A DNA stretch of 64,000 bases, taken from the NCBI RefSeq assembly GCF_964020115.1, contig NZ_OZ026542.1:1550001-1614000 (forward strand). The letters are read 5' to 3'. Position numbers and translations under genes: made by a program. This DNA is from Candidatus Regiella endosymbiont of Tuberolachnus salignus (GTDB lineage Bacteria > Pseudomonadota > Gammaproteobacteria > Enterobacterales > Enterobacteriaceae). Positions 62,013-63,100 of the stretch are shown one piece after another; the stretch's first letter is position 1, and the number at the start of each line of letters is the position of its first letter. Below the pieces are notes generated by a model that did not search any database, was not told where the DNA came from, and saw only the letters and a program-made list of their open reading frames with translations.

Positions 62013-63100
62013 AAAAGAGTAAAGTCCCTCTACGGTTAATTAATATATTAGCTGACGGTATGTTTCATTCTGGTGAGAAATTAGGCGAAATCATGGGGAT
62101 CAGCCGTACTGCAATTAATAAGCACATTCGCACAATAAAAAGTTGGGGGCTGGATGTATTTAGTCTATCTGGCAGAGGTTATTGTTTAACTTGCCCTCTC
62201 CAGCTGCTCGATGAGAAAAAAATACGCAGTTATATACCCACAGCCCTTGAAGTTGCCGCTAGGCGACCAGGGTGTGAGACCGATGAGCGTAGACAACTAC
62301 GTGATTCGGCGAACACTTGCAGCCAACAACGCGGCGGCTTCAAAGGCGAAGGGTATATGCCATCGGCCTCAGGGAACATAGAGGTTCTGTCCATAATAGA
62401 CTCAACGAATCAATATTTATTAGAGCGTATGAACGAGCTCCAATCGGGTGATGCTTGTGTTGCTGAATATCAATACTCTGGCCGTGGCAGACGTGGTCGC
62501 CAATGGGTATCCCCCTTTGGTAGCAATATTTATTTCTCTATGTTTTGGCGATTGGAGCAAGGACCTGAATCTGTTATGGGACTCAGCTTGGTCATAGGTA
62601 CCGCTATTGCGGAAGTACTCAAACAAATGGGTGTGGAAGATATCCGAGTAAAATGGCCGAATGATCTTTATCTACATGGTAAAAAATTGGCTGGGATCCT
62701 AGTGGAATTAACCGGAAAGATGGGTGATGCAGTGCAATTAGTGATGGGGGTAGGTATTAATATTTTGATGCCAATAACCGCACAAAAAGAATCAATCAAC
62801 CAGGATTGGACGACGTTACAAGAAGCAGGGATTACTATTGATCGTAATGAATTAACGGCAGAATTATTTGCTACATTAAAGCGTGACATGATGCAATTTG
62901 AAAAAGAAGGATTAACCGCTTTTATTGATCGCTGGCGTCAGTTAGATAATTATTGTGATTGTCCGGTAAAATTGATTGTCGGGAAAAAAGAAATCAGGGG
63001 TATCGCCCGCGGGATTGATTCGCAAGGAGCATTATTATTAGAGCAAAACGGGACTGTCAAAGCTTACAACGGTGGTGAAATATCACTACGGGGTGTGTAA
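62009..63100 (+). CDS. birA: Biotin-protein ligase / biotin operon repressor BirA with repeat-encoded insertion
   Basis: Activates biotin to biotinyl-AMP, transfers it to the carboxylase carrier protein and, as a dimer, represses the bio operon. It has 363 residues, 42 more than E. coli. Winged helix: GEIMGISRTAINKHIRTIKS (about 25-46). Ligase: GRGRRGRQWVSPFGSNIYFS, VKWPNDLYLHGKKLAGILVE, GVGINI and the C-terminal domain are intact. The extra residues (about 75-116, IPTALEVAARRPGCETDERR to GGFKGEGYMP) are encoded by a family A repeat in the linker between the DNA-binding and ligase domains, in frame and without stops. Confidence 0.96.
   Translation: MKKSKVPLRLINILADGMFHSGEKLGEIMGISRTAINKHIRTIKSWGLDVFSLSGRGYCLTCPLQLLDEKKIRSYIPTALEVAARRPGCETDERRQLRDSANTCSQQRGGFKGEGYMPSASGNIEVLSIIDSTNQYLLERMNELQSGDACVAEYQYSGRGRRGRQWVSPFGSNIYFSMFWRLEQGPESVMGLSLVIGTAIAEVLKQMGVEDIRVKWPNDLYLHGKKLAGILVELTGKMGDAVQLVMGVGINILMPITAQKESINQDWTTLQEAGITIDRNELTAELFATLKRDMMQFEKEGLTAFIDRWRQLDNYCDCPVKLIVGKKEIRGIARGIDSQGALLLEQNGTVKAYNGGEISLRGV
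62233..62357 (-). repeat. Family A palindromic repeat inside birA
   Basis: Opens tatacccacagcccttgaag and closes cttcaaaggcgaagggtata, with ccagggtgtgagaccgatga inside: an inverted copy of the family A unit at 60319 (and closest to 9520). The 125-bp unit plus one base adds 42 codons to birA and keeps the frame open. Confidence 0.95.

Follow-up and report, generated by a model that had tools for sequence, protein, structure and literature searches.

Our analysis revealed that the gene birA of the aphid symbiont Regiella insecticola is interrupted in frame by a palindromic element of the ERIC type, which lies in the window, i.e. the whole stretch of 64,000 nucleotides analysed here. With a probability of about 0.85, we consider that a frame-neutral ERIC inserted at a TA in birA, and that its 41 codons are likely read into the protein, which would tolerate them as a disordered loop separating the DNA-binding and ligase domains. 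It is an ERIC behaving like the Rickettsia palindromic elements, and birA is one of many hosts.

The insertion in birA

The features are collected in Table 1. In strain LSR1, where the sequence on either side of the insertion site is 95.2 and 96.1% identical to the window, birA reads ...GCAGTTATATGCC... where the window genome reads ...GCAGTTA[TATACCC..GGGTATA]TGCC. This empty site has a single TA; the insertion has therefore doubled the TA and lengthened the gene by a net 123 nt, or 41 codons. The in-frame translation of the element is [Y]IPTALEVAARRPGCETDERRQLRDSANTCSQQRGGFKGEGY[M], within which lies the stretch IPTALEVAARRPGCETDERR, and from the sequence the 41 added codons in BirA are likely translated. 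A preliminary description of this DNA had counted 42 extra residues because E. coli BirA, which has 321 aa in the solved structure, served as the reference; the empty site corrects the figure to 41 (363 against 322 aa). In several other points that description was right: the palindromic insert is precise, in frame and free of stops, as seen from the open frame of 363 codons and the LSR1 empty site; it separates the winged helix from the ligase domain, as the Pfam domains indicate; and both flanks align with the family, for the alignment to E. coli BirA (1bia) covers residues 1-73 and 121-362 of the window protein with the element in between.

Table 1. Positions in the window of birA, its parts and the copies of the element
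Feature	Position	Strand	Remarks
birA	62009..63100	+	GTG start, one open frame of 363 codons without stop; interrupted in frame by the element
birA Pfam domains			winged helix HTH_11, residues 13-58; ligase BPL, 129-251; BPL_C, 319-361
birA segment before the insertion	62009..62232	+	DNA-binding winged helix and the short helix after it (69-75 in the model)
ERIC-type palindromic element in birA	62233..62357	+	125 bp, ends TATACCC...GGGTATA
Left TA of the TA target-site duplication	62233..62234	+	from the LSR1 empty site
Right TA of the TA target-site duplication	62356..62357	+	from the LSR1 empty site
birA segment after the insertion	62358..63100	+	biotin ligase and C-terminal domains
125-bp ERIC-type copy	60319..60443	-	its part 60319-60380 and the part 62296-62357 of the birA copy are complementary at 94%
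126-bp ERIC-type copy	9520..9645	-	same family as the birA copy
129-bp copy	58882..59010	+	nearer to the published ERIC consensus, 93/130
127-bp copy	37742..37868	+	nearest to the ERIC consensus of five tested (reverse complement, 98/130)

The proposed comparison with BirA of related symbionts found the insert absent in LSR1 and in six close database relatives, where the protein has 322 aa (the six are listed at 83-86% identity). Among the 120 listed of 7398 database matches, the window BirA is the only one of 363 aa; a protein with a name beginning 'Candidatus F', presumably Fukatsuia, has 319 aa. As for a second, uninterrupted birA, none was seen among the best 50 of 361 candidates scored in the own genome, where a complete second gene would be expected among the top-ranked candidates, and the 49 other matches span only the element region of the query.

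A diverged relative of ERIC

When its reverse complement is compared with the ERIC consensus printed in Delihas 2007 (PMC2759123), the birA copy is identical at 87 of 131 positions (z 11.2 against 200 shuffles), and by its sequence the element is a diverged relative of ERIC. It shares with ERIC (RU-1) the palindrome of about 125-130 bp, the ends TATACCC/GGGTATA, the TA target duplication, the high copy number, and the similarity to the consensus, which reaches up to 98/130 in other copies of the window. More specifically, the birA copy has 125 bp against a typical length of about 127 bp, and its inverted ends TATACCC..GGGTATA go along with a hairpin: the single-strand fold has -27.3 kcal/mol against a shuffle mean of -16.9 (z -4.0), and 0 of 200 shuffles is as good. 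The location in birA and 18 other host genes departs from the intergenic one; the name reflects the usual place and not a required trait, and intragenic ERIC has already been reported. The element also looks like a non-autonomous MITE without internal transposase, having only 125 bp and frames of about 41 codons.

Six palindromes of the birA-element type are found in the window against 0.01 expected, and the whole genome, a single contig of 3,288,801 bases, has 211 perfect-ended copies against 1 for the backward-pattern control. There are 51 copies of 125 bp (with at most 1 end mismatch) and 68 perfect copies of 126 bp. We considered whether the two kinds of copy in the window are unrelated repeats, and rejected this, as both align to ERIC. 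In the family, ERIC-like matches were obtained in 57 of 295 genomes, the window genome and LSR1 included and with two candidates scored per genome; they are mostly about 70% identical, and several are aligned over 127 bases.

Several copies are arranged head to tail as pairs or clusters (genome 1300190-1300441, 1619271-1619728, 1845210-1845459 and 1879980-1880228), several of them sharing end bases, and they look as if newer copies insert into the ends of older ones; one such pair sits between bioC-like and bioD-like genes. Apart from these copies, the window also contains a 2132-nt inverted repeat (31703-33834 and 51092-53223), whose two arms are 100% identical and probably represent a mobile element present twice.

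Copies inside other genes

The preliminary description had suggested a search for the 125-bp unit inside other genes, and such a search revealed 18 further non-toxin hosts. The census sample comprises the window and 100 stretches around copies, the selection being aimed mainly at the lengths 125 and 126 bp; it covers 50 of the 51 125-bp places and about 62 of the 68 126-bp places, with flanks of mostly 1 kb for 126-bp copies against 3.5 kb for 125-bp copies. From 196 pattern matches 187 copies were kept (ERIC-like score, at least 110 bp); the 125- and 126-bp forms are the commonest among them, as the sampling aimed mostly at those lengths. Host genes were curated by reading frames and families, with toxin-like frames excluded.

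In this sample, 19 non-toxin hosts have a copy in frame: birA, mukF, murF, murD, ftsW, cca, purL, a CadC-like regulator, rlmKL, trbI, a polysaccharide deacetylase which we take to be yibQ-like, mutS, ribF, holC, a glycosyltransferase-like gene, aat, fliH, an ArsC-family (yffB-like) gene, and a cptA-like gene with its copy at genome 84764. In-frame insertion in unrelated genes, as expected of an element of the Rickettsia type, is thus found in 19 curated genes. Family sequence stands on both sides of the element in 13 of them (birA, mukF, murF, murD, cca, purL, rlmKL, mutS, ribF, aat, holC, CadC-like and cptA-like), where the two-sided match is weak in the CadC-like gene, and in holC 26 residues stand ahead of the element and the match continues from profile position 16. 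For the other 6 (ftsW, fliH, trbI, yibQ-like, yffB-like and glycosyltransferase-like), the family matches on one side or none; in ftsW and trbI, the element is preceded by 27 and 22 residues, and the match picks up again directly behind it, at profile positions 27 and 15.

Solved structures locate the junctions in four hosts: MutS (384|431 against 383|389), MukF (245|292 against 243|249), MurD (252|299 against 243|249 of a tagged chain) and RlmKL (160|204 against 148|151) align to the structures on both sides, and between these there is little beyond the element. For aat, it is observed that its C-terminal tail (NEFRVTARRQGSETDERR) resembles the start of a second repeat copy, and therefore aat may carry two copies.

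Several candidates needed a separate decision. Of five sites flanked left and right by a long frame, two lie between different Pfam families, two have a family on one side only, and one is in frame, namely the yffB-like site at genome 473524; reading the latter as a copy between neighbouring genes was rejected, as the frame runs through the element into the 18-codon tail of the ArsC-family gene, and it was counted. Read-through frames without any family at genome 2676231, 3086851 and 1414975 were not counted as hosts, and the pattern matches at 1555472 (in a frame we take to be rpoB-like) and 1441473 are chance matches. By the longest frame, the copies before uvrD, lptC and purE would be N-terminal insertions; this was rejected and they were set aside as leaders, because the start codon comes after the element, and likewise the copy before zapA. 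The copies at genome 199229 (uvrD), 1946474 (lptC) and 3060149 (purE) end just before the likely start codons and may affect expression. The read-through frames of folK, PilM and CytR also look like leaders, because the family match begins at profile position 4-6 after the element.

Outside the host counts, three large toxin-like frames also carry copies, one of them at two places of equal length. The in-frame copies in toxin-like frames (TcdA/TcdB-type and peptidase C80 domains) are at genome 1982302-1982426, 2021807-2021931, 1704443 and 3112245, the domain scan covering the frames at 1982302, 1704443 and 3112245; two toxin-like frames have equal length and a copy in the same place.

Length and reading frame of the copies in genes

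In the sample, the copies inside genes are restricted in length. Taking the net length as the copy span minus the 2-nt duplication, 19 of 71 copies with a net length that is a multiple of 3 are in genes, against 0 of 116 others (p 1.9e-9). The tendency persists with two-sided hosts only (13/71 against 0/116; p 1.6e-6), with folK, PilM and CytR counted as in-gene (19/71 against 3/116; p 1e-6), and when 125-bp copies (15/51) are compared directly with 126-bp copies (0/72; p 5e-7); these comparisons are to be read with the caution that a long-dead host gene would escape recognition and that the 126-bp copies had shorter flanks.

Moreover, 13 of the 15 in-gene 125-bp copies share one frame, ending in RSQQRGGFKGEGY-like sequence, where a share of 0.45 is expected from frame openness and the TA phases, which are 46, 37 and 16% in 25 long reading frames (p 1e-3). 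This is not a rule for all insertions, and such an idea was rejected: murF and the cptA-like gene use another frame, and the 122- and 128-bp copies vary. The favoured frame is the most hydrophilic of the three that are open in the birA copy, with GRAVY -1.09 against -0.31 and -0.16, and 13 of the 41 residues of its peptide are charged. The ERIC consensus, with 127 bp and a net length of 125 nt, would therefore be frame-shifting if inserted, and it carries three stops in the frame used by birA, where the birA copy has none. In a tree of the copies no clade of gene-only copies was found; in-gene and intergenic copies are mixed, and therefore the idea of a separate gene lineage is weakened.

Variation among strains

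Flank probes for 18 sites were compared with LSR1 and gave matches for 16 (fliH and glycosyltransferase-like being without match; trbI and cptA-like were outside the probe set, and the purE probe falls at an LSR1 contig end). The element is absent in LSR1 at birA, purL, mutS and the lptC leader, and it is present in both strains in mukF, murF, murD, ftsW, cca, CadC-like, rlmKL, ribF, holC, aat, yibQ-like and the uvrD leader; LSR1 has the yffB-like copy as well. Filled and empty sites with the TA duplication were compared in birA, lptC and purL, the mutS anchor being without an exact match in the same comparison. MurD is known with and without the insert in close relatives, with TNAHY/SSFG exactly at the junction and murD empty in another strain, and the filled and empty proteins are consistent with a TA duplication. 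In strain 5.15, MutS has 908 aa, the insert peptide included. Therefore the insertions are polymorphic and seen in independent assemblies. As a side observation, the LSR1 copy nearest to the birA copy (C2:21562-21686, 99%) lies inside a long reading frame, and therefore gene-borne copies may seed others.

At the 12 sites shared with LSR1, the dN/dS of the element is 0.50 (34.5 N, 21.5 S), a value which rests on 56 changes and includes the uvrD leader copy and two frame-broken sites, against 0.19 (115 N, 170 S) for the host codons; the peptide is therefore under weaker constraint than the host protein, but perhaps still under some. The two frame-broken sites, 2 of the 12, are mukF (an 11-nt gap) and aat (a 1-nt gap) of LSR1, in which indels inside the element split the frame; therefore tolerance is not universal, or these are draft errors.

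What the insert may do to BirA

An AlphaFold2 model of BirA, built on 34 sequences, has a mean pLDDT of 85.4 with residues 87-119 below 50, and Foldseek ranks E. coli BirA first among its matches (TM 0.93 by target length). By this model, BirA is predicted to keep its fold with the insert unstructured, and the 363-aa protein is predicted to keep its ligase activity. Both bioB and BCCP, the substrate of the ligase, are present with open frames, and therefore both roles of BirA have a possible target. A strict search for the BirA operator at bioA-bioB gave nothing at 14 of 18 matches; the bioA-bioB spacer has an inverted repeat TTGTCAAC..GTTGACAG, which presumably resembles bioO.

It is conceivable that the insertion harms BirA, whether as an early decay of the gene or by keeping the ligase half with repression lost. 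The gene itself argues against this: it has neither stop nor frameshift, the GRGRRG motif, which we take to have its role in BirA, is intact, private changes are not in excess (4 in 321 positions against 0-10 in the six sequences without insert), the comparison with LSR1 gives 11 nonsynonymous changes in 744 sites and 18 synonymous ones in 213, and the targets just mentioned are in place with their open frames and inverted repeat. Harm thus seems unlikely to us, even considering that symbiont genomes shed functions, that the insertion is specific to this strain, being absent in LSR1 and the six relatives, and that the shared copies in mukF and aat are broken in LSR1.

Still less probable is an adaptive loop, which would retune the coupling of biotin binding, dimerisation and repression. 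Its place between the DNA-binding and ligase domains would suit such a role, as would the relatives without insert, but a nearly identical peptide is found in unrelated proteins, the element codons evolve faster than the host codons at shared copies, and the insert is predicted to be unstructured. Altered bio regulation by the insert, which the preliminary description had suggested, is not the likeliest outcome, and tolerance is the simpler reading.

For a mature BirA of normal size, the insert might be removed or bypassed after transcription, by RNA processing, translational bypass or protein trimming. The element does fold into a stable hairpin, and a 2024 review (PMC10969869) describes that RNase III processes messages at Correia elements and that RNase E acts at ERIC. 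Such processing leaves the message cut or degraded and does not rejoin its ends; moreover, removal would let frame-shifting copies persist in genes, yet they are missing among the 116, and it leaves the preference for one frame (13/15) aside, so that we give this idea very little credit. Equally hard to believe is an assembly artefact, i.e. a repeat collapsed or misjoined into birA where assemblies tend to fail, given that the empty site is precise and shows the TA duplication, that the genome is one contig, and that comparable inserts exist in the independent assemblies of LSR1 and strain 5.15.

Relation to known systems and possible evolution

Rickettsia palindromic elements are reportedly selfish DNA lying in frame in unrelated proteins (the work of Ogata et al. 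in 2000 and 2002), and they have so far been the showcase of selfish DNA entering proteins without killing them. The analogy drawn in the preliminary description is supported by the in-frame palindromic inserts in unrelated genes: in both cases short palindromic selfish DNA lies in frame in many unrelated proteins. The Regiella element differs from them in belonging to an Enterobacteriaceae lineage and in being another element, and the likeness is one of behaviour. The 2024 review calls the Rickettsia elements the outstanding case of in-frame insertion, and it cites intragenic ERIC (PMC10969869).

The further remark that no such description was known in this group needs correcting, as Delihas 2007 (PMC2759123) reports enterobacterial genes to which ERIC (RU-1) or other repeats are fused in frame, with repeat-derived reading frames at 24 enterobacterial loci. 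According to that paper, the repeats in superfamily proteins lie in C-terminal regions, and none was met inside a conserved domain. The Regiella copies are like those fusions in that ERIC frames are joined to annotated enterobacterial genes. The fusions described there are C-terminal extensions in superfamily proteins and otherwise concern mostly short or hypothetical proteins, whereas the Regiella copies split MutS, MurD, MukF, RibF and others, have empty sister-strain sites at birA, purL, mutS and murD, and are read from the other strand than the RU-1 peptides in Table 1a of that paper. Unlike the ERIC consensus, the 125-bp form in Regiella is free of stops in the frame used by birA, and it lies inside conserved genes. 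As for Regiella itself, no title on such insertions was met among the open-licence papers searched.

In the reading that we prefer, frame-neutral ERICs enter genes and would be tolerated there, as the Rickettsia palindromic elements are. A transposase acting in trans would move the element, and insertions would fall in many places, from which selection might purge those that shift the frame, bring stops or disturb the core of a protein; the one hydrophilic frame may be favoured because it would yield a soluble, unfolded loop. A broader proposal, to which we would give somewhat less than an even chance, is that of an ERIC subfamily adapted to genes, which would have shrunk to a net 123 nt, shed the stops from one sense frame and kept a hydrophilic disordered peptide, spreading from gene to gene through essential symbiont proteins. 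Protein-coding selfish DNA would then have arisen a second time and independently, in Gammaproteobacteria, entering the conserved domains that ERIC was said to avoid.

In any case, the insertions in Regiella limit the 2007 statement that ERIC stays out of conserved domains. Moreover, the empty and filled sites in close strains allow direct tests of tolerance, for example by pairing the filled and the empty form of MutS, MurD or BirA, which differ by one and the same insert of 41 residues. There is also a warning for annotation, as a surplus of 41 residues in a Regiella protein can stem from a repeat. Finally, in the database a MutS entry labelled Klebsiella pneumoniae, with 1054 aa, has an oddly high score against Regiella MutS.
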